A stretch of DNA of 64,000 nt, taken from an uncultured Muribaculaceae bacterium. Lineage in GTDB: Bacteria > Bacteroidota > Bacteroidia > Bacteroidales > Muribaculaceae. The notes beneath the pieces were generated by a model that did no database searches, was not told the DNA's origin, and worked only from the letters and a program-made list of their open reading frames with translations. The stretch is from positions 62,001-126,000 of the forward strand of contig CAJOFM010000015.1 in assembly GCA_905233915.1 (NCBI GenBank). Direction: 5' to 3'. Positions 46,151 through 64,000 of this stretch are shown here, in pieces. Every line of letters begins with the position of its first letter. The stretch's first letter is position 1. The translations under genes were made by a program, and so were the position numbers.

Positions 46151-47383
46151 TTAGTCTTCACGCCACAGGGGCATGCTCATGCAGCGGGGCCCTCCACGGC
46201 CGCGAGAGAGCTCGCTGCTGGGAATCTCTAGCACGGTGATGCCCTCATCGCGCAGGATGGCGTTGGTCACGTTGTTGCGCTCATACACGATCACCTTGCC
46301 CGGTGCGATGCACAGCGTGTTGGAACCGTCGTTCCATTGCTCGCGCTCGGCAGTGATGAGGTCACCGCCGCCACACTTGATGAGCTTAACATGCTCCAGC
46401 CCCAACGACTCGGCGAGGATTTCCTCCAGGGTCTCCTCCTTGCGCTCGAGCTTGATTTCGTTATCACCAGTGCCGCGGGTGAGCTTGAACACCTCCAGCG
46501 GGCCCAGGATGCCGGGATGCACGGTGAACTTGTCGTGGTCAATCTGGGTGAACACGGTGTCCAGGTGCATGAATGCGCGTGTCTCGGGGATGTGGATGGC
46601 AAGCACGGTGTCGATGGCGGCATTCTCATCCTTGAAGATGTTCTTGGCGATGAGTTCGATGCCGTCGGGCTCGGTGCGCTGCGAGATGCCGATGGCGAGC
46701 GTGTGCTCGTTAAGGTTCAGGATGTCACCGCCCTCGATGCGGTAGGGCAGGTCGCGGTCGTAGTGGTGCGTCACCTCCTTGAAGTCGGGGTGATACTTGA
46801 AGATGTAGTCCCCATAGATGGTCTCGCGGCAACGAGTTACCGAGAACATCCTGTTGATGCTAACGCCCGTGCCGATGCAGGCGAACGGGTCGCGCGTGAA
46901 GTACAGGTTGGGCATGGGCTTAACCACAAAGCGGCTGTCACCGCGCACCTGGTCAACCAGCGAGTTCTCCACCTCGTGCGGGTCACGGGGCAGGTCCTGC
47001 AGATAGATGCCCTCCATCGTCTTGAGCACCAGCTCCTTGCTCGACTTGATGCCGTTCAGGTAATTATAGATGATATCGTGGTACTTTGTCGCACAGATGC
47101 CGGCCTCCTCAATGAACTGGCGCAGGAACTGCTCCCTGATTTCGGCACTGATGTCAAGCACCTGGGCCATCAGGTCTTCCAGGTAAACCACTTCAACGCC
47201 GTTGTCACGCAACACCTGCGAGAAGGCGTCATGCTCCTCCTCGGCTACCTTAAGATAGGGAATATCGTCAAACAGAAGTTCTTCCAGTGTGTTGGGCGTC
47301 AGGTTGAGCAGTTCACGTCCGGGACGGTGCAACAAAACCTTCTTCAACGGTTTTATCTCACTTGTAACATGAATACCTTTCAT
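46151..47383 (-). CDS. arcA: Arginine deiminase
   Basis: 410 residues. The guanidino-group-modifying enzyme motifs are present: [10 protein letters not shown] (about 168-177), [11 protein letters not shown] (about 222-232) and the C-terminal nucleophile in [14 protein letters not shown]. It hydrolyses arginine to citrulline and ammonia, first step of the ATP-yielding and acid-countering pathway. No arcD antiporter gene is in the window. A -7 element lies at 47438-47445. Confidence 0.96.
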
Positions 47384-47437
47384 GACTTGGAAATTTATTC
47401 TTTCTCGTTTATGATAATGGATGTTCTAATTCGTGTG

Positions 47438-47445
47438 CAAAGGTA
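47438..47445 (-). promoter_or_regulatory. -7 promoter element of the arc operon
   Basis: Minus-strand TACCTTTG, 55 bp upstream of arcA. No good -33 match. Confidence 0.5.
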
Positions 47446-47586
47446 TACAAATTCCCTCAACCCCACATCATTTTTCACATCTTTTTATTAACACGTCGTG
47501 TGTGGTAAGAGTCAGTCGGCCTTTACAGGCAACAAACACGAAAAACAGCTTACGGAAAAAAGTTATGTTAAAAACGACTCAAATTA

Positions 47587-47617
47587 TTGCATCTTTGTTC
47601 CAACTGTTGTAACTTTG
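47587..47617 (+). promoter_or_regulatory. Promoter upstream of an uncertain small gene
   Basis: TTG (47587-47589), 20 bp, TAACTTTG (47610-47617). It points into 47.62-47.93 kb, where only a 76-codon frame is found. Confidence 0.5.
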
Positions 47618-47698
47618 CGGTGTCAAACGAAGACAACAGCTCTTTGAAATACTGTCCACATCAAAGTAGATCGGGATACTCTTCAAATTTTTTATGAA

Positions 47699-47929
47699 AT
47701 GCCGAGACAAGTGCTGTATTCAATGGCGGGCCTCGACCGCAAGGTGCTTAACAGCCAGAGGATTACAAAGATTATGGCACCCTCAAATCCTGTATTTAAT
47801 CGGAGTTTCATCACATCCTTTGGTGTGGATTTTTATAAAGAGGAGCACAAGGCCAGCCAATCAGCCTTCTGCTCCTTTTTCTTTGAGAAAAAACAGGCTC
47901 TTTTTGGCCGTTTTAAGGAAAAGGTGTAA
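47699..47929 (+). CDS. Possible small protein or non-coding RNA
   Basis: A 76-residue frame beginning MPRQVLYSMAGLDRKVLN, basic with a Phe-rich C terminus. It has its own promoter 82 bp upstream, natural-looking composition and no overlap with known genes, but no family is recognised. Its 3' end overlaps the promoter of the next gene. The 580-bp gap from arcA to 47965 otherwise holds only promoters. An RNA product is equally possible. Confidence 0.3.
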   Translation: MPRQVLYSMAGLDRKVLNSQRITKIMAPSNPVFNRSFITSFGVDFYKEEHKASQSAFCSFFFEKKQALFGRFKEKV

Positions 47930-47934
47930 ATTTG
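47903..47934 (+). promoter_or_regulatory. Promoter of the small membrane protein gene
   Basis: TTTG (47903-47906), 20 bp, TAAATTTG (47927-47934), 31 bp before the ATG at 47965. Confidence 0.6.
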
Positions 47935-47964
47935 CACCGCAAAACCAACAAAACCTATAAGACA

Positions 47965-48171
47965 ATGAAGGCTTATTTATATAAGGAAGAGGCGCAGCCC
48001 ATCGAGCCCATCGATGAGCACAAGCTTGCTATCGCCGACGAGAAACCCGAGAAATCTGATGTGCCCAAGCTGTCCCTGTATGTGGTCAAGTACAAACCCC
48101 TGTGGACCGCTACGCTCATCGCCCTGGTGATTTTTGTCATTTGGGCACTTGCAACCTGGCTCTTGAACTAA
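47965..48171 (+). CDS. Small C-tail-anchored membrane protein
   Basis: 68 residues from the ATG at 47965 (MKAYLYKEEAQPIEP); an upstream in-frame start would lie on the promoter. The first 40 residues are charged and soluble. The last 20 (LIALVIFVIWALATWLLN) form one transmembrane helix with almost nothing beyond it. Function unknown. Confidence 0.7.
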   Translation: MKAYLYKEEAQPIEPIDEHKLAIADEKPEKSDVPKLSLYVVKYKPLWTATLIALVIFVIWALATWLLN

Positions 48172-48268
48172 AATATTTCTTCATTGCCTAATCAGTTGGC
48201 GTTGTGATAGATAGCGCCAAATGATTTTACGCGCTCAAATTTTTTTTGAAAAAAGTTGGCAAAAATGC

Positions 48269-48298
48269 TTGCCAGTTCAAAAAAAGGCAGTAACTTTG
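48269..48298 (+). promoter_or_regulatory. Promoter of tRNA-Arg
   Basis: TTG (48269-48271), 19 bp, TAACTTTG (48291-48298), about 20 bp before the mature tRNA 5' end. Confidence 0.65.
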
Positions 48299-48318
48299 CA
48301 GCGCAAAAAACGAAAAAT

Positions 48319-48392
48319 GGTCCCTTAGCTCAACTGAATAGAGCGTTTGACTACGGATCAAAAGGTTACAGGTTTGAATCCTGTAGGGATCA
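48319..48392 (+). tRNA. tRNA-Arg (anticodon ACG)
   Basis: A full cloverleaf can be drawn: acceptor GGTCCCT/AGGGATC with one G-U, D stem GCTC/GAGC, anticodon stem TTTGA/TCAAA around CTACGGA, and T stem ACAGG/CCTGT with loop TTTGAAT. The discriminator is A and CCA is not encoded. The anticodon ACG, read as ICG, decodes CGU/CGC/CGA. It marks the left edge of an accessory island and is a classic integration target. Confidence 0.93.
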
Positions 48393-48401
48393 CTTATATA
48401 G

Positions 48402-48440
48402 ATCGCAAATGCTTGATTTTCAAGCATTTGCGATTTTTTA
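48402..48440 (+). terminator. Terminator of tRNA-Arg
   Basis: A perfect 14-bp stem (ATCGCAAATGCTTG / CAAGCATTTGCGAT) with a five-base loop and a T-run, 10 bp beyond the tRNA. Confidence 0.85.
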
Positions 48441-48690
48441 TTGTCATTTTGCCCCACATTTGCCCCACCAAATTATAAAGGAAACGCATATAAGAGAATC
48501 CGCAATAAGGCATTTTTAGAGTTCAACGCTACAGGTCGAGGTATTTATCTTTACAACTTGATTTTACACCATTTTCTTGTCCGAGCTTGCTCCTCAAAAT
48601 CATATTTTGGCAAGGACAACCATGTGTTAACGAAAGTTAACTCTTATTAGGCTAAGAGTTTTTATAAAACACTATTCCTTTTTGTCGATT
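48441..48690. other. Non-coding start of the island
   Basis: No gene is seen between the tRNA terminator and the minus-strand genes. Two close copies of TTTGCCCCAC (48448-48468) and a hairpin AACTCTTA/TAAGAGTT followed by TTTTT (48639-48664) are present. These could be recombinase arm sites and a + strand terminator, but neither can be proved here. Confidence 0.4.
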
Positions 48691-48696
48691 CTCTTT

Positions 48697-48735
48697 AAAA
48701 AAACGGGGGCCGAGAAGCAAGCTTTCGGCAACCCC
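48697..48735 (-). terminator. Terminator of the HTH/DUF6291 cluster
   Basis: On the minus strand a GGGG...GCCGA...AGC / GCT...CGGC...CCCC hairpin with small bulges ends in GTTTTTTT, about 20 bp past the last stop codon. Confidence 0.65.
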
Positions 48736-48753
48736 TATTTTACATCTTGTATT

Positions 48754-49386
48754 TCATTGTCCCATCTCTTTTTTCCGCCGTTGGTACTCTTCATAGGTTA
48801 TGGCGTTCTTCTTCCACTCCTCACGCTCACGATCTCTTTCCCTTTGCTCACGTTTCTCATATGCCCGGCTCCTGTCACTCAGGAAATCACGAAGGCTAAG
48901 AATGATGATGGACGGGTCGAAGGTACTGTAGAAATGGCGATATTTCGCAGAGCAGAAGTTGAAGAAGAACAGCTGCAGTTCGTCAACCTTCAGATAGCCA
49001 TATTGCAGTGCGATTATCTTGACCAGCTTTTCTGTCTGATTGATGTCCGGCATTTCCTTTATTCCCATGAACAGACATGCCTCTTGCACCTCGGCTGCAA
49101 GCCACACTTCTGCCGCTCCTTGTCCGTAGAGTTTGTTCAGCGAAATTAAAGTAGGTGAGTTGCCGAAATAGCAATCCTCGGGATCATTGCATATATGCAG
49201 TTGTCTGTCTGGATTGATGGCGACCAAGAATTCTTTTACCGTGGGGTACTTGTTCTTAATCTTCATCAAAGTTGGCGACAGGTTCGTTTCTTGCGCCGAT
49301 GAGTTTGTTTGCAAGCTGTAAGGTGGTCCGCTGGGCAGCATTCCTTCTTGCTTCAATTGATTGATCACTGCGTTGATTGTTTTCAT
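48754..49386 (-). CDS. Island protein, DUF6633-like
   Basis: 210 residues from the ATG at 49384-49386 (MKTINAVINQL). A globular middle (LNKLYGQGAAEVWLAAEVQE near 89-108) is followed by an Arg/Glu-rich helical tail (REQRERDREREEWKK). The pattern resembles DUF6633 proteins of Bacteroidales elements. The start lies 131 bp inside the upstream gene in another frame, an unusually long overlap but the only start that fits. Function unknown. Confidence 0.55.
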   Translation of the reverse strand: MKTINAVINQLKQEGMLPSGPPYSLQTNSSAQETNLSPTLMKIKNKYPTVKEFLVAINPDRQLHICNDPEDCYFGNSPTLISLNKLYGQGAAEVWLAAEVQEACLFMGIKEMPDINQTEKLVKIIALQYGYLKVDELQLFFFNFCSAKYRHFYSTFDPSIIILSLRDFLSDRSRAYEKREQRERDREREEWKKNAITYEEYQRRKKEMGQ

Positions 49387-50047
49387 TTTGCAGGTCGGCT
49401 GAATTGATAGGTGTCGTTTCCCATGTGCGGCAGGTGAGGAAGTTTGCAAAGTCCTTGCGATATTTTCTTTCAGGTCGTGCCCTCACATATAAGGGAACAT
49501 AGGAGAAAATGGCTTTCTTATCATCGTGTGACAGTGCGTTCCAACGTTGTCTTAGATGTTCTTGATCACCTATTGGTTTGTCATACACTTCCCAAATTTT
49601 GTCAAACGGGTATTCTTCGCCCTCTAACATTTCCACATCATTGATGATGGAAGTGTTAGTTCCATCATCAATGTTCGGATTTGGATTTTTTTTGGGATTT
49701 GGATTAGGATTAGGAATGCATGCGACGGGATGCGGAGGGAAACCGTCGCATGCGTTTGAATCCGATGGCATGCGTTCGTTGCTTTCCTGCTGTTTGGATG
49801 CATAGCGTTTTCTGGCGTTTGCGCTGTTCTTCAGACATTTTTCTTTATAGGCATCTCTACTGCGGTCTATCTGCGATCTGATCATCGCAAATACCGACAT
49901 CATTGGACCGGCAAATTTGGGCACAACTCCATCTTCGGCATAGTCATAAATGGCCTTGAACATCTGCCCCGCTTCTTCATCAGTAAGATAAGCGATTGCA
50001 TCTCGCTGTTCCGTGAAGAGCAGAATTGTCTTTGAGTCTTTTGCCAT
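49256..50047 (-). CDS. DUF6291-like phage/element replication protein
   Basis: 263 residues from MAKDSKTILLFTEQRDAI; an upstream in-frame Met at 50068 is possible. The N-terminal part (LTDEEAGQMFKAIYDYAEDG, about 23-42) matches the DUF6291 type common in Bacteroidales phages and elements. A low-complexity linker encodes Asn-Pro repeats (IPNPNPNPKKNPNPN, about 111-125). The C-terminal helical part (FDKIWEVYDKPIG) is like replication initiators. Role inferred only. Confidence 0.65.
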   Translation of the reverse strand: MAKDSKTILLFTEQRDAIAYLTDEEAGQMFKAIYDYAEDGVVPKFAGPMMSVFAMIRSQIDRSRDAYKEKCLKNSANARKRYASKQQESNERMPSDSNACDGFPPHPVACIPNPNPNPKKNPNPNIDDGTNTSIINDVEMLEGEEYPFDKIWEVYDKPIGDQEHLRQRWNALSHDDKKAIFSYVPLYVRARPERKYRKDFANFLTCRTWETTPINSADLQNENNQRSDQSIEARRNAAQRTTLQLANKLIGARNEPVANFDED

Positions 50048-50070
50048 AAAGACCTCCTTCCTTATCATAC

Positions 50071-50385
50071 TTAGCCATTGAGCAAAGCCATTACATCACT
50101 GTATTTGTACATGACATGCCTTCCACCAACTTTCCTGGAACGGAGATATCCTTGCTTGTTCCATCGCCATAGCGTGGTGTAGTTCACATGCAGCAGACTC
50201 GCCGTTTCCTTACGGGTGATGAATCGCATTCCTTCAGGAGCATCTATACCTGCCTCACTATCATTTTGCATATTCCTGGTCTGAGCAGCGACAATGTTTT
50301 GTGCCATCTCATTCACCATAGTGTCAAGGTCTGACCTCGACATCACAACCAATTGGTTGCCTAATATTTTGTTTTCTGTGTTCAT
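50071..50385 (-). CDS. Excisionase-like helix-turn-helix protein
   Basis: 104 residues. The C-terminal half is a MerR-like winged HTH (HTH_17 type): ITRKETASLLHVNYTTLWRW then NKQGYLRSRKVGGRHVMYKY (about 57-96). Such proteins act as excisionases or plasmid/element regulators. It lies 23 bp upstream of the DUF6291-like gene and would head the cluster. Confidence 0.8.
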   Translation of the reverse strand: MNTENKILGNQLVVMSRSDLDTMVNEMAQNIVAAQTRNMQNDSEAGIDAPEGMRFITRKETASLLHVNYTTLWRWNKQGYLRSRKVGGRHVMYKYSDVMALLNG

Positions 50386-50789
50386 AATATATAAATGTTA
50401 AACTTTTTGATCTACATTTACATGGTACTTTATGCACGGATCCTTTTGCATATCAGATTTCAAGAAGTATCGAGTCCGACAATCTTGAAACCCGAGGCAG
50501 CTCCACGAAATCGAATGCAAAATTAGAGTGATGAAAGCTCCAAGAAGAAAATCGCATCAATAACCAGCCATTTCTGCCCTCACATTTCAAAATTGGTTCT
50601 AACGAGGAGGGCAATTAGAACCAACAATTCACAAAACACCTTTTATTTCTATCTCCGAAGAGTGTCAAATGATGCCACGTCTTTCGGTCTCTGTAGCGTT
50701 TTCCGTCACTAGTCCTACTTTATTAACTAAACCACACCGAGTTTGCCTCTATGTTTTAAATTACTGTGTTTCATTCTCTCAGAAAATAT
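50386..50789. other. AT-rich intergenic stretch
   Basis: No supported gene. A minus-strand -7-like TAATTTTG at 50518-50525 could serve the HTH gene, with a poor -33. An open frame begins at 50743 and runs into the ThiF gene, but its first 40-odd codons cross the operator palindromes and do not look like protein. Confidence 0.4.
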
Positions 50790-50840
50790 ACCCAAATGGG
50801 TCAAAGTATCTGTCAATCAGTTAGAAGTACCCATTTGGGT
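50790..50840. promoter_or_regulatory. Paired palindromic operator before the ThiF-like gene
   Basis: ACCCAAATGGGT (50790-50801) and its reverse complement ACCCATTTGGGT (50829-50840) lie 39 bp apart centre to centre, nearly four helical turns. Each half is itself almost palindromic (ACCCA..TGGGT). This is the arrangement of a dimer or tetramer repressor site, 30-55 bp upstream of the gene. Confidence 0.6.
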
Positions 50841-50895
50841 ATTGCATCAGAATTTGGTCAGATATACTTTTATGGAAAAATTAATATTTAAGAAG

Positions 50896-51657
50896 ATGGA
50901 AAGATATTCAAGAAACAGAGTTTATGTTCGAGAAGAACAGCAATCAAGAATTAAGTTTTTCAAAATCATTATTGCTGGCGCTGGCATTGGTGGTGTCATC
51001 GCCGAATGTTTGCTGCGTTTTGGCTTTGAAACACTCACGATAATAGATGACGAAGTCGTAGAGGAATCAGACTTGAATCACCAGAACTATACCCATAATG
51101 ATATCGGGTCACCAAAAGTCAATGCCCTAAAAAGGCGCCTGATGGAGATTAATCCTGACGCAAATATTAGTATCATTGATGGAGCCATTGATAAAGATAA
51201 TGTTGAAGGCCTGGTTAAAGGACACGACATTGCAATAAATGCATTGAAATATGACTCAGATATTCCATTTGTTTTTGATGAATGGTGCCAGAAATACAAC
51301 ATCCCTGTATTGCATCCGTACAACATCGGATGGGCTGGACTTGTTTTCGTTGTTACGCCGACAGGAATACAGTTAAAAGACATCTGTGATGACGATCACC
51401 GTGGGTTTGAAGTGAAAATGATAAAGCATATTTTCAACTATTATAAATTTTGGGGTGAGCCAAAGCCGTGGATTGAGCAGGTTGTGGCATCCTATGAGAA
51501 TGAAAAATGCATCTTGCCACCTCCCGAACTAGCGGTAGCCTCTTGGCTTATCGCAGGTACCGCTACCCACTTATGTTACAAAATAGCTGTTGGAGAAAAG
51601 TATCTAAGGTATCCAAAGTTCTATCTGGATACAATAGAAGAAGATCAGCTTATATAA
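50896..51657 (+). CDS. Solitary ThiF/E1-like adenylyltransferase fold protein
   Basis: 253 residues from MERYSRNRVYVREEQQ; 50872 is an alternative ATG. The Rossmann motif GAGIGGV (about 29-35), ATP-site Asp in LTIIDDEVVEESDLN (about 47-61) and INALKYD are E1/ThiF-like. The invariant Arg of the NLxRQ motif is His here (LNHQNY), and the zinc CxxC pairs and an evident catalytic Cys are missing. No ubiquitin-like, E2 or JAB gene is adjacent. It may be a divergent activating enzyme of a defence system or an inactive nucleotide sensor. Confidence 0.75.
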   Translation: MERYSRNRVYVREEQQSRIKFFKIIIAGAGIGGVIAECLLRFGFETLTIIDDEVVEESDLNHQNYTHNDIGSPKVNALKRRLMEINPDANISIIDGAIDKDNVEGLVKGHDIAINALKYDSDIPFVFDEWCQKYNIPVLHPYNIGWAGLVFVVTPTGIQLKDICDDDHRGFEVKMIKHIFNYYKFWGEPKPWIEQVVASYENEKCILPPPELAVASWLIAGTATHLCYKIAVGEKYLRYPKFYLDTIEEDQLI

Positions 51658-51672
51658 GATATATCTTGATCC

Positions 51673-51723
51673 ATACAGCACCACTGATGCCATCTTGCGA
51701 CATTGGTGGTGCTGTATTTTTCC
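51673..51723 (+). terminator. Terminator of the ThiF-like gene
   Basis: Perfect 12-bp arms ATACAGCACCAC / GTGGTGCTGTAT followed by TTTTTCCC. Confidence 0.8.
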
Positions 51724-51781
51724 CAAAGCTGAAAAGTAAACAAAAAAGACTTTCATAACAACTTGATTCAACAAAAGGATG

Positions 51782-51789
51782 TAAATTTG
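51782..51789 (+). promoter_or_regulatory. -7 promoter element of the 287-residue unknown gene
   Basis: TAAATTTG, with a TTG 16 bp upstream (51763-51765), 27 bp before the ATG at 51817. It rules out the in-frame TTG start at 51763. Confidence 0.5.
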
Positions 51790-51816
51790 CCACTATGTTT
51801 AAATAAGATTCGGATT

Positions 51817-52680
51817 ATGGTTGAGTATTCTTTTAGTAGGTTATGTTTCAAGGCAGACGTTATTGAACCATTAAATGATGACGATATCTTTGCTGTTCAT
51901 ACTCCAGATGGGACTTTTCAAATGACGAAAGCGGATTTCTATCGAGTGTTTCCGAATGTTATAGCATCTAAAAGCTATAGGGATAGTGGTATTTACCACA
52001 TGAGCCATCCACCCAGAAAAGCTTTACAGTTCCTGACAGGAACGACTGGCTTTTTGAAAGAAACGCCAGTGAAGAGTTTACCCAAAAAAGATTTAATTGG
52101 AGATGAAATCCGTGAAAAAATCAAAGAGATAGCCTTACTTTGGAAGGGATCAGAACATAACCCGTACATAGGTAATGATGTTCTAGAATCCTGGGAACAA
52201 GTGATCAATGAGTGGATTGAAGACGAAGAAATGCCCTTAATCATCAGAAAAGATGCAAATAAGCTCAAAGGTCAATCCTTCATCCACCCAAGTAAGCGAG
52301 AAATTATTGTTAGCGATAATACTTTTTCTATTTGGGTATGTGGTCGTGTTATGAATAACGAGACTTACACGCTCAAACAACTAAAGGTAATGCTTTTCAA
52401 TAACGAAATACCAATGGTCTTCATGCAAACTGAAGACGTCAAGAACAAAGGCAAGTACACAAGGCCGTTAGGTGGTTTCTATTTGCCTGACTGGAAGGTT
52501 TGTCATATTGATCCAGTTGGATTCAATAGCAATAAGTCTATTGAAGAACTAGATATTGTTGCTATTAAGGAGCATTTCAAGAAGTTAGCAAGTCCGTACA
52601 ATATGTTCGTTCTTCCGAAAGAGATTGGAGATTTAGGTGAAATTCAGATTTTCATTGATGAACAACGAAGAAAGAAGTAA
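51817..52680 (+). CDS. Unknown island protein
   Basis: 287 residues from MVEYSFSRLCFKADVIEP. The N-terminal region (IFAVHTPDGTFQMTKADFYR, about 24-43) looks like a small beta domain. The C-terminal region has WKVCHIDPVGFNS (about 227-239), reminiscent of a His-metal (HNH-type) site, and NMFVLPKEIGDLGEI; this reading is weak. The gene has its own promoter and sits between the ThiF-like gene and a PD-(D/E)XK-like protein, so a defence role is possible. Confidence 0.55.
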   Translation: MVEYSFSRLCFKADVIEPLNDDDIFAVHTPDGTFQMTKADFYRVFPNVIASKSYRDSGIYHMSHPPRKALQFLTGTTGFLKETPVKSLPKKDLIGDEIREKIKEIALLWKGSEHNPYIGNDVLESWEQVINEWIEDEEMPLIIRKDANKLKGQSFIHPSKREIIVSDNTFSIWVCGRVMNNETYTLKQLKVMLFNNEIPMVFMQTEDVKNKGKYTRPLGGFYLPDWKVCHIDPVGFNSNKSIEELDIVAIKEHFKKLASPYNMFVLPKEIGDLGEIQIFIDEQRRKK

Positions 52681-52706
52681 AAAAGTGTTTTGTAGATGAA
52701 GTATGG

Positions 52707-52714
52707 TATCTTTG
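52707..52714 (+). promoter_or_regulatory. -7 promoter element of the nuclease-like gene
   Basis: TATCTTTG 31 bp before the ATG at 52746. A TTTG lies 14 bp upstream, too close for a standard -33. Confidence 0.45.
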
Positions 52715-52745
52715 CAAGAACGTATGTTTTTTAAGGAGTATTACA

Positions 52746-53492
52746 ATGATTATTAGCAAATATGGACTTTCTTTTGAAGAAGAGTCTGCCAACATGACTG
52801 GCAACGGTTTTTCTGTAGCTAAAGAACTGATTGAGAACCTTTTCTTTGGTATGGCCAAACTAAGCACAAAGTATGACAACAAAGTGTTTAGTGATTTGCC
52901 CTATACGTATTCAGAACGCCCTCTTGACAGCATCCTTTTGCCTAAACTATCAAAGCTTTGCAATTCAATGGTAATGGTGGAAATCCCAACTGTAAGAGTG
53001 TGTGATAACAGAAGATTTCAAGTTGAAAAGTCAACCGGCAGAATAGACTACTGGTGCATTTATAAAGGATATAGCTTTGTTATTGAGTTGAAACACAGCT
53101 TTGATTGTTTTACCACAGCAAAAACGAGATATCGAAAGGTCATACAGCCATGGATTAAAATGAACGAGCAGTTACAAAGTATAGAGAAAGCTCTAAAATC
53201 TTACGAAGAAGCAACAATGGGCGTGATTAGAATTGGGCTCCATATTGTCACATCCTACTCCGATAAAACCCCTAATAGGAGTTTATTGAATGAGTTTTTA
53301 GAGAGCATTCCAGATACATTTGAACGTTTTCAAAATGACTTAGGGAAACAATATCCCAGTTTAAGGCCTAATATGTTGATTTGTTGGAAGATACCAAAGA
53401 AACTCATTATGAAAGATATCTACACTTTCCCTGGTCTATGGGCTATTGCAAAGATATATCCAATCATAAAACATCGAGGGGCTATTGATTGA
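52746..53492 (+). CDS. PD-(D/E)XK nuclease-like protein
   Basis: 248 residues. The stretch GRIDYWCIYKGYSFVIELKH (about 98-117) has the Asp and the Glu-x-Lys of the restriction-endonuclease fold in correct spacing after a long N-terminal helical region (ANMTGNGFSVAKELIENLFF). The C-terminal half is helical with PNMLICWKIPKKLI. No recognisable partner is coupled to it. Anti-phage or element-associated nuclease is the likely class (inference). Confidence 0.6.
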   Translation: MIISKYGLSFEEESANMTGNGFSVAKELIENLFFGMAKLSTKYDNKVFSDLPYTYSERPLDSILLPKLSKLCNSMVMVEIPTVRVCDNRRFQVEKSTGRIDYWCIYKGYSFVIELKHSFDCFTTAKTRYRKVIQPWIKMNEQLQSIEKALKSYEEATMGVIRIGLHIVTSYSDKTPNRSLLNEFLESIPDTFERFQNDLGKQYPSLRPNMLICWKIPKKLIMKDIYTFPGLWAIAKIYPIIKHRGAID

Positions 53493-53519
53493 ATTCCGTA
53501 GCTCGTCGTTCCCCAGCAT

Positions 53520-53555
53520 TTACGGTTGTTCTACCTTTTCAGTGAGCAACCGTAA
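53520..53555 (+). terminator. Terminator after the nuclease-like gene
   Basis: TTACGGTTG and CAACCGTAA (9 bp perfect) around an 18-base loop, followed by TTTCTTGTTTT. Confidence 0.65.
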
Positions 53556-53718
53556 TTTCTTGTTTTAATACCCAAGTCCTTGAACTGTAAACAGATTCTT
53601 AAGAACAAAATGAGAACAATGAAGTAACCCATCGCAAATTAGAACCGCATCAAGAAACAGTAAAAATCGGGAAATTTCTGCTATTTTCGTAAAAATCTTA
53701 CAAAAATCAACAAAATAT

Positions 53719-53750
53719 TTTGTTATTTTACTTGAAATGATATACCTTTG
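53719..53750 (+). promoter_or_regulatory. Promoter of the Rlo-TIR operon
   Basis: TTTG (53719-53722), 20 bp, TACCTTTG (53743-53750), 26 bp before the ATG at 53776. A strong match. Confidence 0.65.
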
Positions 53751-53775
53751 CACCAAAACTTCAATACAATATAAC

Positions 53776-55059
53776 ATGATACGAGAATTTTGGGCAGAAA
53801 ACTTTCTGTCGATTAAGGAACGGCAAACCGTTAACTTTGAAACGAAGTCCAAAGACGACGAATGGGCATCGGTTGATGTCGGAGGGAATAAACGTGTTAA
53901 CAAGTTGGCGGTCATTTATGGCGCCAATGCTTCGGGTAAGTCAAATCTCCTGTTAGCCATTCAAAACGTTTTTGAACTGCTGTACTACCCACAGAATGAT
54001 CGGTCTCAGCCTGTTCTCACCCGTCGTGCATTCGCTTTGAACAACGACAAGTCCTCAACACTCTTCGTTTCATTCTATGCCAATGACATCCGCTATGACT
54101 ACACCATCACATTCAACGAGAAATATATATTGGATGAATTGATGGACTGGTACCCTCATGGAGCTAAAGCATTATTTTATGAGCGACATTTTGTTTCGGA
54201 GGACTCGTGGGCAAAGATTAAGTTTGGAGATCTAAAGCTTTCAGCTAAATCAAAAGATACATTTCTACGGAATACACTGAATAACCATTCAGTGTTGTCC
54301 GTCTTTGGCAAAATGGCATTTAATAACGATGCACAATACATAGCAGATCTTCACCGATGGATGACAAGTTACATGCATGAAGTTAATTCCATGCAAAATG
54401 CTCTCGCCACAATGCTAAGATCGGCCGAAAAGAATGACAAGACCAAACGCTTTTTTCTTAAACTGCTACAAAAAGCCGACTTTAACATCGTTGATTTCTA
54501 TACCGAGGTCGTCAGCGAGAAGCATCCCATCGGCAACATGCTGGCCATCGGTAATAGCACAGAGCCCATTACCAGTATTCCCACGTTCAAGATTCAACAG
54601 ACCAAAGCATACTTTAAATGCGCAGCAGGCGACAAAATATTTATTTTAAGTCTTGACGAGCAGTCCAAAGGGACAAAGAAGTTCTTGTCGAACCTTTCCT
54701 ACCTTTATAGTGCCCTGACGGGCGATCATGTTTTCTTGATTGACGAGATTGATTCAGAATTGCATGATGACTTGTTATTGTACTTCCTGAATGCATTTGT
54801 ATTGAATTCCAAGAAATCCCAGTTGATTTTCACTACACAGGAAACAGCACTACTAGATGAAGAACTGCTCAACACCCATCGAGACTTTGTATTTCTTGCT
54901 GAGAAAGACCGCGTAGGTGCCTACTCAAAATACACCAGAGTTGACGAGTTCGGACTGCACAAGAATCTTTCATTATACAATGCCTACAAGACCGGGCGGC
55001 TTGGTGCTGTTCCGCAATTAGGTTCACCCATCATTTATATGGACGATGACGAAGATTAA
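53776..55059 (+). CDS. RloA-like AAA/ABC-type ATPase (defence)
   Basis: 427 residues from MIREFWAENFLSIKERQTV; the longer frame includes the promoter. The ATPase has Walker A YGANASGKSNLL (about 47-58), a long helical insertion, and Walker B with DEIDSELHDDLL (about 322-333) followed by the SQLIFTTQE switch. This is the AAA_15/21 group that includes RloA, AriA of PARIS and other sensor ATPases of anti-phage systems. It overlaps the RloB-like gene by 14 bp. Confidence 0.85.
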   Translation: MIREFWAENFLSIKERQTVNFETKSKDDEWASVDVGGNKRVNKLAVIYGANASGKSNLLLAIQNVFELLYYPQNDRSQPVLTRRAFALNNDKSSTLFVSFYANDIRYDYTITFNEKYILDELMDWYPHGAKALFYERHFVSEDSWAKIKFGDLKLSAKSKDTFLRNTLNNHSVLSVFGKMAFNNDAQYIADLHRWMTSYMHEVNSMQNALATMLRSAEKNDKTKRFFLKLLQKADFNIVDFYTEVVSEKHPIGNMLAIGNSTEPITSIPTFKIQQTKAYFKCAAGDKIFILSLDEQSKGTKKFLSNLSYLYSALTGDHVFLIDEIDSELHDDLLLYFLNAFVLNSKKSQLIFTTQETALLDEELLNTHRDFVFLAEKDRVGAYSKYTRVDEFGLHKNLSLYNAYKTGRLGAVPQLGSPIIYMDDDED

Positions 55060-55663
55060 AGACTCAATAGCTGTGATTGGCGAAGGAATTACGGAATACT
55101 ACTATTTCAATTCCTTGAAAGATGAGTTCACTCAGCTTAACTTGCGCCCAATGTACCCCAAGCACTCCACAAGTCTTGAGGATGTTGAACAGGAAATCGA
55201 CAAGGCCATTGACAGGGGCTACAATTTGATTTTCTGTGTTATAGACATGGACAACAAGAAAGATGGCGCTGAAAAGCAAAACTATCTTAACTTGAAAAAG
55301 CGTCTTGAGGGCACCTGGACCATTAAGAAGACAGATCAGACCTATACCATTCGCTTTATTGAGAACGAGCGTTGCACCGAACTGTTCTTCCTGTTCTATT
55401 TTATCTATACGTCGCGTCACTTCCAAGATCAGCCTGCAATGCTGCAAGAACTTAACAAGCGCTGCAAATATGAGAAGACCGAGAAGTTCTTCAAAGCACA
55501 TAGTCTGCACCAGTATTTTCTGAATCATGGCGGCAGCTTCATGGATGCCTTGCGCAATGCAGCCCACTCGATGAAGGAGAAAGAAGAAACCGGACGAGAC
55601 CACACCTATTCCCAAATGGCTGAACTTTTTGAGGCAATAGGAATTAAGCAGAATGACTCATGA
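55046..55663 (+). CDS. RloB-like TOPRIM-type protein (defence effector)
   Basis: 205 residues. A TOPRIM-like active site is visible: Glu in VIGEGITEYYYF (about 9-20) and the Asp pair in FCVIDMDNKKDGA (about 63-75). A helical C-terminal part follows. RloB-type proteins pair with RloA ATPases, by analogy with AriB in PARIS, where the nuclease is released by the ATPase after sensing phage (family knowledge). The start lies inside the RloA gene, ensuring 1:1 coupling. Confidence 0.8.
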   Translation: MTKIKDSIAVIGEGITEYYYFNSLKDEFTQLNLRPMYPKHSTSLEDVEQEIDKAIDRGYNLIFCVIDMDNKKDGAEKQNYLNLKKRLEGTWTIKKTDQTYTIRFIENERCTELFFLFYFIYTSRHFQDQPAMLQELNKRCKYEKTEKFFKAHSLHQYFLNHGGSFMDALRNAAHSMKEKEETGRDHTYSQMAELFEAIGIKQNDS

Positions 55664-55723
55664 CACATGATGCATTCATTAAAGAACAATCCATTGTAAT
55701 AAACTAAAACACATGAAATTTGC

Positions 55724-56593
55724 ATGAGCATATCAACTATACAAAGCAATATTGAACGATACCAGCGTGAAGTGACTGGTATCATCAAACAAATTGGTGA
55801 GAAACGTAAAAAGCTTGCTGACGCAAAAACTAAAGGCTTAAAGGCCCAAACCGATGCGACAAAAAGCAAATCGCAATCTACATTCAAATCAAAGCTAAAT
55901 GAAGTTAAACGTTATGGCACAGAAGAAGCCAAGCTGACCAAGGAGATAGCTGTCCTTGAAAAGAAGCAGGCAGATGCACAGAAGAAGCTTGACAACGAAC
56001 GTAATAAATTAAATAAAGAGCAAGCAAAAGAAGACAAGAAAAAAGATGCCAAAATTGCGGCTGATCAGAAAGCGACAGAACAGGCAATGAGTAATTTGAA
56101 TAAAAGAGTAAAGACAGTTCAGGATGAACAGAAACGTTTACATTCTGCCCTCTATCCTTTACTACGAGTTGAAGAAAGCGAATCATACGATGTTTTCATT
56201 TCTCACGCTTCGGAGGATAAAGCCACATTTGTCGATGAGTTTGTACAAGAGCTCACCAATCTTAATGTTAAGGTATGGTATGACAAACTCAACATGGGCT
56301 GGGGACAGAGCTTAAGAGTTAGTATTGAGACTGGATTGCTACAATCAAAATATGCAGTAGTAGTAATATCGCCCAGTTATTTTCAAAAATACTGGACCGG
56401 TCAAGAGTTGAATGGCATTTTCACTAAAGAATCTGCTATTGGAAATTGTATATTACCGATATGGCACAATATAACTAAAGATGAGGTTGCCCAGCATAGC
56501 CCAATTCTTGCCGACAGACTTGCATTGGACACTTCAATTATGTCATCAAAGGAAATCGCTGAACAATTTGTTAATGTATTAAATCGCAGATAA
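55724..56593 (+). CDS. Coiled-coil TIR-domain protein
   Basis: 289 residues. The first 145 form a long charged coiled coil (IAVLEKKQADAQKKLDNERN). A TIR domain follows: YDVFISHASEDKATFVDEF (about 155-173), VKVWYDKLNMGWGQSLR (box 2) and the catalytic-type Glu in WTGQELNGIF (about 225-234). Bacterial TIR domains cleave NAD+ or make cyclic-ADPR signals in abortive defence. It lies 60 bp after the RloB-like gene with no terminator between, so it is likely the same operon. Confidence 0.85.
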   Translation: MSISTIQSNIERYQREVTGIIKQIGEKRKKLADAKTKGLKAQTDATKSKSQSTFKSKLNEVKRYGTEEAKLTKEIAVLEKKQADAQKKLDNERNKLNKEQAKEDKKKDAKIAADQKATEQAMSNLNKRVKTVQDEQKRLHSALYPLLRVEESESYDVFISHASEDKATFVDEFVQELTNLNVKVWYDKLNMGWGQSLRVSIETGLLQSKYAVVVISPSYFQKYWTGQELNGIFTKESAIGNCILPIWHNITKDEVAQHSPILADRLALDTSIMSSKEIAEQFVNVLNRR

Positions 56594-56686
56594 TGAGTGA
56601 ATTTGCAACGCTGAAGGCTATTAGTGTGCAGAAATAGAAATTATATTAGAAAATTGTAGATATTAACGAATTTAAAGTTAACTTAT

Positions 56687-57352
56687 ATGCTAATTAATTG
56701 TTGCATAGACACATATAACATTAATTGGGTAGCTCTAAGTGCAATTTCAAATATTGTCCTTGCCACCATTGCAATAGCAACACTTGCATTTAGTATCTTC
56801 TTGATGGTAAAACAAAACAAGCAAAGAAAAGATGAAATCAGAGCAAGGCTAATGTTTAGTTTTTACCATTGGAAGGATTTATATTTTCTTAAGGTTGAAA
56901 ATATTGGGAAAGAACCTGCTTATGATGTTAATCTAGAAGTGACAGGTAAACCCATCAAAGACAGTCTTTACAAGAGTATTGTGGGCATTTTTTTTGATTT
57001 GGCGTCAAAGAAATTTGCCATTCCTGCAGGAAAGAGTAAATACTTTTTAATCAGCCCTGCTGTGGCTAAGGGTGCTGATCTGATGTTGGGTAGCGATCGC
57101 CATTCTTATGTAGAGATTAGGGAATGGCTTGATCAGTATGGAGATGAACTGATTTACATCAAAGGCAAATATAATAACAAATACAAGATCAATGAATCAA
57201 TGTCAATCAAAGAACACATTGTTTATGGCTCATTTTGCGTATATGAGCAATTCGATTGGATTGCAGAGTCATTATCTGAAATGAACGACGATATTGAAAA
57301 GGTGCAAAAACACCTTAAAGTAATTAGCGATAATATCAAGAAACATGATTAA
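56687..57352 (+). CDS. One-helix membrane protein in the Rlo-TIR operon
   Basis: 221 residues. A single transmembrane helix (ALSAISNIVLATIAIATLAF, about 16-35) near the N terminus is followed by a basic cytoplasmic flank (KQNKQRKDEIRAR), a beta-rich domain and a helical tail. No family recognised. Its place 93 bp after the TIR gene suggests a membrane-linked partner or effector, but it could also be separate. Confidence 0.6.
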   Translation: MLINCCIDTYNINWVALSAISNIVLATIAIATLAFSIFLMVKQNKQRKDEIRARLMFSFYHWKDLYFLKVENIGKEPAYDVNLEVTGKPIKDSLYKSIVGIFFDLASKKFAIPAGKSKYFLISPAVAKGADLMLGSDRHSYVEIREWLDQYGDELIYIKGKYNNKYKINESMSIKEHIVYGSFCVYEQFDWIAESLSEMNDDIEKVQKHLKVISDNIKKHD

Positions 57353-57575
57353 ATAATGGATAAACTGAGAATGCACACTATAGACGATATTGACAAGAAA
57401 TATTAGTACAACAATGAAATGCCCCGATATTTTAACTTTTTAACGATTGTAGCACCTAAATATGGCACTGGCTTGATCTATCTTTGCTGCGGATTACAGA
57501 TTTGCATTTATGTGAGATTTGGATTTCTCTCATATCGTTAATTATGAGAAAGTGCCATTTTTCAAGAAAAATGCT
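57353..57575. promoter_or_regulatory. Upstream part of the hsdR control region
   Basis: No gene. It contains a first -7-like TATCTTTG (57479-57486) and an inverted repeat TCTCATA/TATGAGA (57528-57549) between it and the second promoter element. The dyad could be an operator or the terminator of a short transcript from the first element. Confidence 0.4.
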
Positions 57576-57720
57576 TATCTTTGCATCCGGAACAAGAATA
57601 TTATATATTCTTGATGCCTGCAAAAGACTGAAATAATGAAGTTTTCACAAACTCCTATGCGGTATATAGATATATGAGCTTTGGTCGGCTCGCAGGAACT
57701 GCACTGGAGTTTGTTTTTTG
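57576..57720 (+). ncRNA. Structured hsdR leader or small RNA
   Basis: Promoter element TATCTTTG (57576-57583) is followed at the expected start by a 9-bp hairpin (CAAGAATAT/ATATTCTTG, 57592-57612). About 35 bases further on begins a long-range stem CAAACTCC (57648-57655) / GGAGTTTG (57706-57713), with a T-run (57714-57719) and inner GAGC/GCTC pairing. This is the form of a 130-base terminated RNA ending 28 bp before hsdR, either an attenuator or an independent small RNA. Confidence 0.45.
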
Positions 57721-57747
57721 ATATAGCAACTTCTCATAATATATATT

Positions 57748-61884
<4,137 letters not shown>

Positions 61885-61888
61885 ACAC

Positions 61889-63313
61889 ATGGATACCAAA
61901 CAACTGCGCCAAAAGATATTAGACTTGGCAATTCGTGGGAAACTTGTGCCACAAGATCCCAACGATGAGCCGGCAAGTGTACTACTGGAGCGCGTCAAGG
62001 CTGAAAAGGAACGCCTTATCGCAGAGGGCAAAATCAAACGCTCAAAAAAATCGGCAGCGTCTTCTGATAAGCCGCATTATCCGTTTGAGATACCCTCAAA
62101 CTGGGAATGGATAAGGCTAGATGAGATAAGTGAGATTGGAACTGGAGCCACTCCTAGTACAAAGGATTCTTCATACTATAATAACGGTACAATATGTTGG
62201 GTAAATAGTAGTAAAACCAATTGTGAGTTTATAACTGAGCCAACTACTTACATAACGCAGAAGGCTCTTAAAGAAACTAATTGCACTATTTATCCGATTG
62301 GAACGATAATAATGGCTATGTATGGCGAAGGTAAAACAAGGGGGCAAATTTCAGAACTGAAAATATCTTCTGCTACCAATCAAGCATGTGCGGCCATAGT
62401 ACCTTTGATTAACGAATACAAAGACTTTATAAAGATTTTCCTGAAAGCAAACTATTGGAAAATACGAACCTTGGCAGAAGGTGGTTTACAACCAAATCTA
62501 AACTTGAAAAAAATTGCATCATATTTAATACCTATGGCACCATTGGCGGAACAGGAAAGAATTGGCGTTGAAGTAGAAAGGCTAATGTCCTTTGTTGATG
62601 AAATTGAGCAGTCAACATCATTGATGAACTATTCGCTTTCGCAAGTCAAAGCTAAGATTCTTGAGTACGCGATAAGTGGTAAACTCGTGGCGCAAGATCC
62701 ATCTGACGAGCCAGCAGAAGTCTTGCTGAAACGAGTTAACCCTAATGCGGTTGTATCTACCGATACATCGCATTACAGTATTCCTAATACATGGATTTGG
62801 GTTAAACTAAGTGACATCTTTGAAATAAATCCCAAAAATCATAATAATGATGATGAGGATGATTGTGGATTTGTTCCCATGTCATATGTACAAGATGGCT
62901 ATTCAGGAGAGCACACCTTCGAGGTCAGGAAATGGGGTAAAGTAAAAAAAGGTTACTCTCATTTCCAAAATGGAGATATTGGAGTAGCTAAAATCTCTCC
63001 TTGTTTTGAGAACCTTAAATCCACAATCTTTCATTCATTACCTAATAATATTGGGGCAGGAACAACCGAACTAGTCATAATGAGGGGGAAAGAAATATTT
63101 GCACCATTCTTCTTATACTTATTCAAGTCGCCATGGTATATTAGTAAGGGTACTGTGTATTTTAAAGGAGTAGTCGGTCAACAACGTGTTAGTCGTGATA
63201 TTTTTACATCGCTTGAAGTTCCATTGCCACCGCTCAACGAGCAAAAGAGGATTTCAGCTAAAGTTGATGAACTATTTGCTGTGATTGACCAGATACAACA
63301 ATCGTTGGAGTGA
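61889..63313 (+). CDS. hsdS: Type I restriction-modification specificity subunit
   Basis: 474 residues from the ATG at 61889. Two target-recognition domains (about 60-235 and 315-450) are each preceded by related conserved blocks, KILDLAIRGKLVPQDPNDEP (about 9-28) and KILEYAISGKLVAQDPSDEP (about 265-284). The recognition domains are visibly more AT-rich than these blocks, as expected for exchangeable modules. The target cannot be predicted. A hairpin and a convergent recombinase follow. Confidence 0.92.
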   Translation: MDTKQLRQKILDLAIRGKLVPQDPNDEPASVLLERVKAEKERLIAEGKIKRSKKSAASSDKPHYPFEIPSNWEWIRLDEISEIGTGATPSTKDSSYYNNGTICWVNSSKTNCEFITEPTTYITQKALKETNCTIYPIGTIIMAMYGEGKTRGQISELKISSATNQACAAIVPLINEYKDFIKIFLKANYWKIRTLAEGGLQPNLNLKKIASYLIPMAPLAEQERIGVEVERLMSFVDEIEQSTSLMNYSLSQVKAKILEYAISGKLVAQDPSDEPAEVLLKRVNPNAVVSTDTSHYSIPNTWIWVKLSDIFEINPKNHNNDDEDDCGFVPMSYVQDGYSGEHTFEVRKWGKVKKGYSHFQNGDIGVAKISPCFENLKSTIFHSLPNNIGAGTTELVIMRGKEIFAPFFLYLFKSPWYISKGTVYFKGVVGQQRVSRDIFTSLEVPLPPLNEQKRISAKVDELFAVIDQIQQSLE

Positions 63314-63331
63314 GCATGACTCCAACGATTG
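63299..63331. terminator. Bidirectional terminator between hsdS and the recombinase
   Basis: Perfect 13-bp arms CAATCGTTGGAGT / ACTCCAACGATTG with a 7-base loop. The left arm contains the last codons of HsdS and its TGA starts in the loop. There is no long T-run, so a recombination-site role is an alternative. Confidence 0.55.
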
Positions 63332-63335
63332 AAGC

Positions 63336-64000
63336 TTACCAGTTTACGATCTTATCGACGATGGCCCGCTGCTCACTGGCTGTACGGCGCAAGTAAATGC
63401 GGGTTGTCTCAATGCTCTCGTGGCCCATCAGGTCGGCAAGGAGGGCAATGTCGTTGAAACGGTCAAGGAAATTCTTTGCAAAACGGTGACGGAACGAGTG
63501 TGGGTAAACAACGTCTCTATTTAAGCCATATATCTCTGCAAAGTGTTTCAGTTGTTGAGCTATACCACGAGTTGTAATGCGCTGACCGAAACGATTAAGG
63601 AACAAATAGCCCGAAGTCTGGTTGCGTTTTTCTAGCCATATCAAGGCCTCTGTCCGCAAGTTTTTTGGAATGTATAAGCGCCGCAACTTGCCACCTTTAG
63701 AGTAGATGTCCAGGTAACCGATCTGAACATGTTCGGCTTTGATTTGTACCAACTCACTGACACGCGCTCCAGTAGCAGTGAGAAACCAAACAACAAAATA
63801 CCAATCTTCGTAGCCATCAGCTTTGAGCTTGGTTTTAAGAAACTTGTAATCAGCATTGCTGATCACGTTCTCCAGGAAGTTCTTTTGCTGAACCTTGACA
63901 AACTTCATTTTCAGTTTGTCGAGTTTCAAGAACTCAAGATACTTGTTCATTCCTTGTAAACGCAGGTTTACAGTTTGCGGCTTGAACGTTTCCACCAGAT
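63336..64000 (-). CDS. Tyrosine recombinase, partial at the window edge
   Basis: About 220 residues are seen; the frame is open to the edge, so the true N terminus may lie outside. Catalytic residues are present: Arg in TATGARVSELVQI, Lys in SKGGKLRRLYI, HxxR in PHSFRHRFAKNF, His in LMGHESIETT and Tyr in RIYLRRT. It is the XerD-like type often found beside hsdS genes, where it inverts or swaps recognition domains. It may instead be the island integrase. Confidence 0.88.
   Translation of the reverse strand, partial: LVETFKPQTVNLRLQGMNKYLEFLKLDKLKMKFVKVQQKNFLENVISNADYKFLKTKLKADGYEDWYFVVWFLTATGARVSELVQIKAEHVQIGYLDIYSKGGKLRRLYIPKNLRTEALIWLEKRNQTSGYLFLNRFGQRITTRGIAQQLKHFAEIYGLNRDVVYPHSFRHRFAKNFLDRFNDIALLADLMGHESIETTRIYLRRTASEQRAIVDKIVNW

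Follow-up and report, generated by a model that had tools for sequence, protein, structure and literature searches.

In the 64,000-nucleotide stretch of DNA analysed here (the window), four genes lie in the order rloA, rloB, TIR and MP on the + strand. An ORF check of the window bore out this order and strand, as given by the initial annotation, along with the 14-bp overlap of rloA (53776..55059) and rloB (55046..55663), which occupies 55046-55059. The TIR gene follows at 55724..56593 and MP at 56687..57352. At 53719..53750 (+ strand) there is a Bacteroidetes-type promoter for rloA (TTTG ... TACCTTTG), an exact match to the Bacteroidetes promoter consensus TTTG-N-TANNTTTG. This promoter had been described as strong; the exact match stands, but its pattern in itself is no more than mildly unusual, because the window contains 4 exact consensus matches versus 1.33 expected and at least 4 were reached in 4/100 shuffles. 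A terminator scan, whose yield was near chance overall (7 sites versus 4.9 expected), found no terminator-like site on the + strand from 54725 to 57800, in keeping with the earlier observation that the four genes are not separated by terminators; one such site lies inside rloA (54711-54724, + strand). Since none falls between rloB and the TIR gene, a single transcript is possible.

The next genes, also on the + strand and called from ORFs and profiles, form a type I restriction-modification (RM) cassette: hsdR, encoding the restriction subunit (57748..60462), hsdM (60465..61613; N6_Mtase and HsdM_N), and hsdS, encoding the specificity subunit (61844..63313; two stretches of Methylase_S). There is an apparent frame break close to the 3' end of hsdM. 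The gap between MP and hsdR is 395 bp, and hsdR is preceded by two promoter-like TATCTTTGC elements of its own, at 57479-57487 and 57576-57584 (+ strand, by pattern match). The four upstream genes are AT-rich, as first noted (GC 0.391 across 53719-57352), but GC is 0.416 across 47001-64000 versus 0.533 across 1-47000, so that low GC marks the region and not the four genes alone. The low-GC region also holds a tRNA-Arg, a ThiF-like gene, the hsd genes and a recombinase, and there is a further GC dip at 29-32 kb of the window.

The product of rloA is a 427-aa AAA ATPase of the AbiLi/OLD class, identified by its ORF, profiles and alignment; its best profiles are AbiLi (9.8e-63) and AAA_21 (8.2e-22) in PADLOC and Pfam. 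The start called at 53737 lies in the promoter and the RloA proteins of relatives begin at the position corresponding to 53776, so the true start is probably there. In the RloA alignment, where the window copy is among the 37 rows, M1 is shared in 35/37, and the catalytic residues G49-K55 and D323/E324 are found in 36/37 and 37/37, respectively. RloB (205 aa) is a putative nuclease of the RloB/AbiLii TOPRIM type, with a match to PF13707 over the entire model (1.5e-21) and a partial one to AbiLii (1e-12; profile positions 27-85 of 170). Its predicted catalytic residues are conserved as well (E17 in 35/36 rows, D67 and D69 in 36/36). The AbiLi match with conserved Walker motifs makes RloA an AbiL-type ATPase, and the adjacent TOPRIM-type protein carrying E17, D67 and D69 is its partner of the RloB/AbiLii type. 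Among solved structures there was no match for RloA and a single one, at E 0.25, for RloB; viral contigs gave no match to RloA.

At first sight the pair recalls PARIS (AriA/AriB), as the initial annotation noted. The ATPase-TOPRIM layout is indeed shared, but the AriA score of RloA (7.1e-20) is far below that for AbiLi and RloB matches no AriB model, and PARIS membership was rejected. By profile, then, RloAB is an AbiL-type ATPase-TOPRIM pair. In AbiL and in Campylobacter rloA/rloB, as in the window, a AAA ATPase gene slightly overlaps a following gene of the RloB/AbiLii TOPRIM type; the window pair differs in that genes for a TIR and for a membrane protein come after it, and in the partial extent of the AbiLii match. 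The C. jejuni genes are reported to overlap slightly within an RM region (PMC2928727), and RloB is described as homologous to AbiLii and found in type I RM operons (PMC10440598). One account gives AbiLii of Fusobacterium nucleatum as toxic in E. coli, and Lactococcus AbiLi and AbiLii as non-toxic there (PMC3985639).

The third gene encodes a 289-aa coiled-coil TIR protein that matches PADLOC PDC-S66 over its full length (4.1e-92, residues 1-287) and TIR_2 (2.7e-18). Residues 153-288 align to the NAD+ hydrolase AbTIR (E 1.6e-36), placing W224xxxE228 on the WxxxE of AbTIR; W224 and E228 are invariant in an alignment of 3 sequences. E208 of AbTIR is reported to be required for NADase activity (PMC11374754), and one paper terms AbTir a nonimmune TIR (PMC10022894). 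The full-length coiled coil plus TIR and the aligned glutamate suggest that the window protein is an AbTIR-type NADase, a prediction made from sequence. Thoeris was considered and rejected: no ThsA was among the matches listed for eight window proteins, and ThsB (4.1e-35) scored far below PDC-S66. MP (221 aa) has a sole strongly hydrophobic stretch, residues 22-42, and a soluble domain. It matched no family among defence and Pfam profiles; its best solved-structure match (0.00068) is a designed coiled coil and covers the C-terminal helix only. No MP relative was confirmed in viral contigs, and the plasmid search gave no match. The four gene identities originally assigned (ATPase, TOPRIM-type protein, TIR protein and one-helix membrane protein) thus all hold.

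Relatives of the TIR and MP genes recurrently abut RM genes. We confirmed 218 relatives of the TIR protein and counted neighbours for the best 80 of the 218. Fifteen of these 80 abut a type III restriction methylase gene (mod), always upstream and on the same strand, and the mirror position, immediately after an RM gene with the same spacing, is occupied in 0/80 (sign p 6e-5, near-copies included). Any RM gene is found near the TIR gene in 25 of the 80; the other 55 have none in the flanks examined, some of which are shortened by contig ends. No RM gene was found at 32 viral loci or in 17 arbitrary 20-kb stretches. In the window itself, the gene after TIR is MP, not an RM gene. In a tree that leaves out proteins <230 aa (12/116 loci) and gives the window TIR no RM label, the window TIR groups with two RM-abutting TIRs (100/99), setting it apart from AbTIR; the RM-abutting label clusters, with 6 changes versus a shuffled mean of 14.2 (0/500 as low). 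For MP, all five clear relatives, two being near copies, are beside or one gene away from restriction genes: in four of them the MP gene ends 3-4 bp before mod or hsdR, and in the fifth it comes one gene after hsdR. Three weaker relatives from a phylum search, kept outside this count (L199-L201), include one beside hsd genes.

RloAB, for its part, is an exchangeable unit. Cassettes with 76-85% DNA identity precede Thoeris, CBASS-NucC or SIR2-HerA, their homology breaking off 11-46 bp short of the rloB stop, and in relatives the system that follows is Gabija or begins with hsdR. RloB was found on three plasmids, and on two of them RloAB leads into a Thoeris set (TIR-ThsA-TIR) with a 4-bp overlap. 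ATPase-TOPRIM pairs were counted by profiles because a motif (regex) count recovered only 10/20 known pairs. At a cut-off of E 1e-10, an RM gene was near RloAB at 1/20 loci, but a general rarity of RM around RloAB would be too strong a conclusion: at E 1e-5, RM genes occur in 9/35 RloAB stretches, with hsdR the next gene downstream in three. Proximity to RM is therefore not exclusive to TIR and MP, and their linkage differs from that of RloAB in degree.

We favour, with a probability of about 0.6, a reading in which the four genes do not make up a single machine but are defence modules, each mobile on its own, stacked ahead of a type I RM cassette, with the restriction-linked TIR and MP as back-up layers. 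The original notion of several stacked defence activities holds in this form. The toxicity of F. nucleatum AbiLii in E. coli is in its favour. Several observations sit less easily with it: the possible single transcript, the contiguity of RloA, RloB and TIR genes at one distant locus (L118, below), the excess of AbiL/OLD-like ATPases at RM-linked TIR loci (below), the 55 TIR loci without an RM gene, the position of MP directly after TIR, the gap before hsdR with the latter's own promoter-like elements, the small number of MP relatives, the RM genes near RloAB itself, the non-toxic Lactococcus AbiLi and AbiLii, and the description of AbTir as nonimmune.

A somewhat doubtful alternative is passive clustering in a defence island, where the genes would share integration sites without functional coupling among themselves or to RM. 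The mixed content of the low-GC region fits this, as does the finding that at 26/35 RloAB loci no recognised defence gene comes next on the same strand in the 250 bp that follow. However, order and strand are not random, as seen in the TIR genes placed directly upstream of mod and never directly downstream of an RM gene, and in the 3-4 bp that separate four of five MPs from mod or hsdR.

It is very unlikely that RloAB and TIR make up a layered system of two parts, with activation of RloAB (or its target) also triggering TIR, and with MP as an unrelated RM passenger. At L118 a TIR gene of the same family does follow rloA and rloB, with an 8-bp rloB/TIR overlap, but L118 RloA and RloB are merely 28% and 26% identical to those of the window. 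Moreover, at two RM-linked loci, L140 and L092, the TIR gene is preceded by a different ATPase and its TOPRIM-like partner (the TOPRIM match at L092 being weak), although both pairs belong to other families than RloAB. The overlap that joins RloAB to a Thoeris TIR gene on the two plasmids likewise fits such coupling, but one RloAB cassette has close relatives that stand before systems without a TIR. An AbiL/OLD-like ATPase occurs in 3/25 RM-linked TIR loci versus 1/87 others (p 0.03), and this excess and the L118 contiguity are hints of some functional tie. A separate Pfam scan of upstream neighbours covered all of 73 except L097, L144 and L162.

The proposal of the initial annotation, one composite system with RloA as sensor, RloB and TIR as effectors and MP localising both, accords with the single promoter, the tight spacing, the lack of terminator-like sites between the genes and the RloAB-TIR order at L118, but is very improbable, since this TIR or MP was found at 0/35 other RloAB loci and both genes occur with other partners. 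RloB, TIR and MP were searched for in two overlapping genome samples, 393 at order level and 119 at family level, and the three occurred together only in the genome of the window; the four genes in order were found in no other of these genomes, nor in 80 TIR loci. RloA was present at 35/35 other RloB loci of these samples. This is largely the pattern that had been named in advance as evidence against a composite system: RloAB without these genes, and TIR and MP beside other, often RM, partners.

If the four genes are indeed stacked modules, RloAB would be an AbiL-type pair expressed from its own promoter. RloA would probably sense a phage product and activate or release the RloB nuclease, by analogy with AriA and AriB; PARIS is reported to sense the anti-restriction protein Ocr (PMC12409363) and has been termed an RM guardian (PMC12707154). 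Because TIR and MP lineages repeatedly lie directly upstream of RM genes, their likeliest role would be as a back-up for restriction that has failed or been inhibited. The coiled coil may hold TIR inactive until a trigger arrives, whereupon TIR would cleave NAD+ and the infected cell would stop growing. More speculatively, MP might anchor TIR or the RM complex to the membrane. A precedent for suicide genes carried in RM cassettes is PrrC, described as an accessory suicide gene of the EcoprrI type I RM locus (PMC12707154); PrrC differs in being an anticodon nuclease, whereas here a TIR lies upstream of mod or hsd.

A wider version of this reading is more tentative. RloAB may be a portable guard cassette, swapped with a short upstream stretch before complete immune systems (type I/III RM, CBASS-NucC, Gabija, Thoeris, SIR2-HerA) and sensing the phage proteins by which these systems are disabled. 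Type III and type I RM operons may have a variable slot, immediately ahead of mod or hsdR, filled by interchangeable suicide genes: coiled-coil TIR, MP, AbiGi-like genes and ATPase-TOPRIM pairs. The window would then be a stacked example of both.

The components are of known kinds; a limited literature search found no description of the TIR-mod link, the MP-restriction link or an exchangeable RloAB lead cassette. What had seemed a single new system becomes a testable rule about which suicide modules accompany restriction systems. The nameless membrane protein family of MP gains an RM-operon context, as does a TIR family with only candidate status in PADLOC. A further question is whether RloAB is a common guard for very different immune systems; for testing such a role, RloAB cassettes that are close relatives yet lead into different systems offer natural swaps.

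Four co-directional genes follow an exact match to a Bacteroidetes-type promoter (53719-53750, plus strand). They encode RloA (53776-55059, start corrected), RloB (55046-55663, overlapping RloA by 14 bp), a coiled-coil TIR protein of 289 residues (55724-56593) and MP, a 221-residue membrane protein with one hydrophobic stretch (56687-57352), all on the plus strand. This is the layout first described for the locus, and the absence of terminators between the genes was borne out as well, a scan finding no terminator-like site there. The AT-richness reported for the four genes is real, but low GC spans all of 47001-64000 (0.416, vs 0.533 over 1-47000) and, together with a tRNA-Arg at 48319-48393, points to an island and not to four genes of unusual composition. 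Over both strands of the window, TANNTTTGC occurs 27 times vs 8.4 expected, a count reached in none of 100 shuffles, which fits a Bacteroidetes genome.

Upstream of rloA, family searches of a three-gene run (50743-53492, plus strand) identified a ThiF/E1-like adenylyltransferase, matching the E1 part alone of E1-E2 models, and two proteins that match no family. Bacteroides fragilis plasmids carry a relative of the second, 59% identical, which adjoins a RhuM gene in a gene table that is incomplete; the run is possibly another uncharacterised ubiquitin-like defence operon. On the other side, 395 bp separate MP from hsdR, which has its own promoter-like elements in front; HsdM, HsdS and a recombinase of the phage integrase family come next. 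The hsdM gene (60465-61884) seems split near 61.5-61.6 kb into two overlapping plus-strand frames, the first (60465-61613) matched by Pfam as N6_Mtase and the second (61513-61884) resembling, by eye, an HsdM C-terminus, with no Pfam match; assembly error, decay or phase variation is possible. The integrase-family gene lies between hsdS and two further Methylase_S genes outside the window, one of them reversed, and the region (61844-63995; L240:2230-3720) looks like an invertible hsdS locus.

RloA matches the AbiLi (9.8e-63), AAA_21 (8.2e-22) and AriA (7.1e-20) profiles and RloB matches PF13707 (1.5e-21) and AbiLii (1e-12), with active-site residues kept across 37 and 36 aligned rows, respectively. 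The TIR protein matches PADLOC PDC-S66 (4.1e-92), ThsB (4.1e-35) and TIR_2 (2.7e-18). Its closest solved structure is the NAD+ hydrolase AbTIR (1.6e-36), and its E228 aligns with E208 of the AbTIR WxxxE motif, the glutamate required for NADase activity according to PMC11374754. PMC10022894 reports that AbTIR in plant cells produces 2'cADPR and lowers NAD+, and terms it a nonimmune TIR. For MP, searches of PADLOC, Pfam and NCBIfam (E 0.01) gave nothing; in alignment A2 (six sequences), a hydrophobic stretch near the N-terminus and a soluble domain are common to the MP relatives.

The initial annotation had read the four genes as a possible composite anti-phage system, with a sensor ATPase, two effectors and a membrane component. 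As a conserved unit, this did not hold. We searched two overlapping samples (E cut-offs of 1e-10 for RloB, 1e-15 for TIR and 1e-6 for MP; counts include the window's genome) and found RloB, TIR and MP in 28, 9 and 4 of 393 order-level genomes and in 9, 2 and 3 of 119 family-level genomes; all three occur together in the window's genome alone. One other genome (G231) carries RloB and a distant TIR, on separate contigs. Only one of the eight other order-level TIR matches is nearly full length (G165), the remaining seven starting at residue 126 or later and most being the TIR domain alone. The 35 other RloB loci, from 34 genomes, were all examined in stretches of 4.5-20 kb: every one has RloA, and none has MP or a TIR of the window's family. 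From the TIR side, a genome scan confirmed 218 relatives, and 78 of the best 80 show no RloA, RloB or MP, nor do any of the 32 viral TIR loci. The two exceptions among the best 80 are L092, with a weak RloA-like ATPase, and L118 (uncultured Bacteroidales), where RloA, RloB and TIR are contiguous and the first two share 28% and 26% identity with their counterparts in the window.

RloAB is instead a unit exchanged in front of different systems. In 9 of the 35 loci RloAB is directly followed, on the same strand and at most 250 bp away, by a gene of a PADLOC defence family: GajA, then GajB, of Gabija (L042); a CBASS cyclase (L048, L058, where it is cut short, and L081), followed in L048 by E1-E2 and a JAB-NucC fusion; SIR2, then HerA (L060); hsdR (L247, L248, L256); and PDC-S11 (L250). 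The JAB-NucC part alone stands 323 bp past RloAB in L059, and the L047 sequence, with PDC-S02 541 bp upstream, ends too soon for its downstream gene to be read. Upstream, the same position holds a defence gene in two loci (HsdS in L248, a CBASS 2TM effector in L251), leaving out six small ORFs of 86-118 residues that are doubtful as genes. Eight loci are thus downstream only and one upstream only (sign test by hand, p ~0.04); this bias is only suggestive, since grouping at 70% RloA identity leaves five groups vs one. On two of three RloB plasmids, both Phocaeicola, RloAB overlaps by 4 bp with a ThsB-ThsA-ThsB Thoeris set; no Thoeris-like partner was found on the third (B. fragilis). The related cassettes L241, L060 and L048 precede Thoeris, SIR2-HerA and CBASS-NucC, and Gabija follows another RloAB group. 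Between L241 and L060, DNA identity is 85% over a stretch reaching 110 bp upstream of rloA, and homology breaks off 27 bp short of the rloB stop; identity is 76% for L241 and L048 (-91 to -46) and for L048 and L060 (-4 to -11). Homology ending near the rloB stop, before different systems, indicates that the pair is exchanged as a unit.

Between DUF4391 (or the operon start) and type III mod lies a slot of variable content. Apart from the window's copy, MP has five clear relatives, of which four lie 3-4 bp upstream of a restriction-modification (RM) gene, either mod (L055 and its near copy L056; L082) or hsdR (L083); the fifth (L057) lies behind hsdR with one YgjP-like gene between. A mod search of 65 family genomes matched 16, and the slot upstream of mod holds nothing (L219), an AbiGi-family gene (L220), MP (L227) or TIR (L228), with a DUF4238 stretch fused to mod in L221. 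MP fills the place between DUF4391 and mod in L082 that TIR has in L084. Also seen before mod were RloAB-TIR (L118), a pPIWI-associated nuclease (L110) and an ATPase with a TOPRIM-like partner and DUF6680 (L140); the AbiGi-family gene is at L220:533-1486.

Among the best 80 of the 218 TIR loci, mod lies directly behind TIR in the same orientation, overlapping it or at most 60 bp away, in 15, not all independent because five pairs among them are 79-89% identical; the mirror arrangement occurs in none (at least 900 bp of flank in 76 downstream and 72 upstream). By Pfam, the next gene downstream (77 loci) is N6_N4_Mtase in 15, ChrB_C in 5 and SIR2 in 2, and the families upstream (70 of 73 loci) include DUF4391 (6), integrase (3) and RloB (1). 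With profiles built here, RM genes were found in the flanks of 25 of these best 80, some with a contig end close to TIR, and in none of the 32 viral loci (both E 1e-10); 17 stretches of 20 kb, chosen arbitrarily in four genomes, also held none (E 1e-8); cut-offs vary, being 1e-10 also for MP loci and 1e-5 for the full 35-locus RloAB set. Six order- or family-level TIR loci have long stretches: TIR abuts mod in L073, lies between hsdS and hsdR in L051 and is ~6 kb from hsdR in L054, and L050, L052 and L053 hold no RM gene; L007-L009 (order) have 1.5-kb flanks only. A maximum-likelihood tree built from 105 TIR rows places the 15 RM-abutting proteins without exception in a group of 32 (support 90/95, below the tool's own mark), and the label changes 6 times vs a shuffled mean of 14.2, with none of 500 shuffles as low. 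The window's TIR groups with L084 and L085 (100/99). L084, a Muribaculaceae MAG locus with a 66% identical TIR, reads helicase, 555-residue gene, DUF4391, TIR, mod, res, and its DNA homology to the window starts at the TIR start codon. Elsewhere (L150:2756-9851), a coiled-coil TIR gene is embedded between the hsdR and hsdS genes of a type I cluster, in reverse orientation to them.

RloAB beside RM is already known, from PMC2928727 and PMC10440598. Our searches of open-licence PubMed Central turned up no description of the coiled-coil TIR-type III mod link, of the MP family or of an exchangeable lead-cassette role for RloAB; we take these to be new combinations of known modules. PMC12409363 states that AriA keeps AriB inactive up to the point at which a phage protein, Ocr for example, binds, and PMC12707154 describes PrrC and PARIS as guardians of RM and hypothesises that accessory genes in RM loci are toxins. 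According to PMC3985639, F. nucleatum AbiLii is toxic in E. coli and Lactococcus AbiLi and AbiLii are not.

For the present locus the trigger might be of the Ocr/ArdA type, and MP could, speculatively, be a membrane anchor. Restriction would be the first line of defence; RloAB would act through nuclease attack if the infection goes ahead or restriction is disabled, and TIR, separately from RloAB, would act on the same occasions through NAD+ loss.
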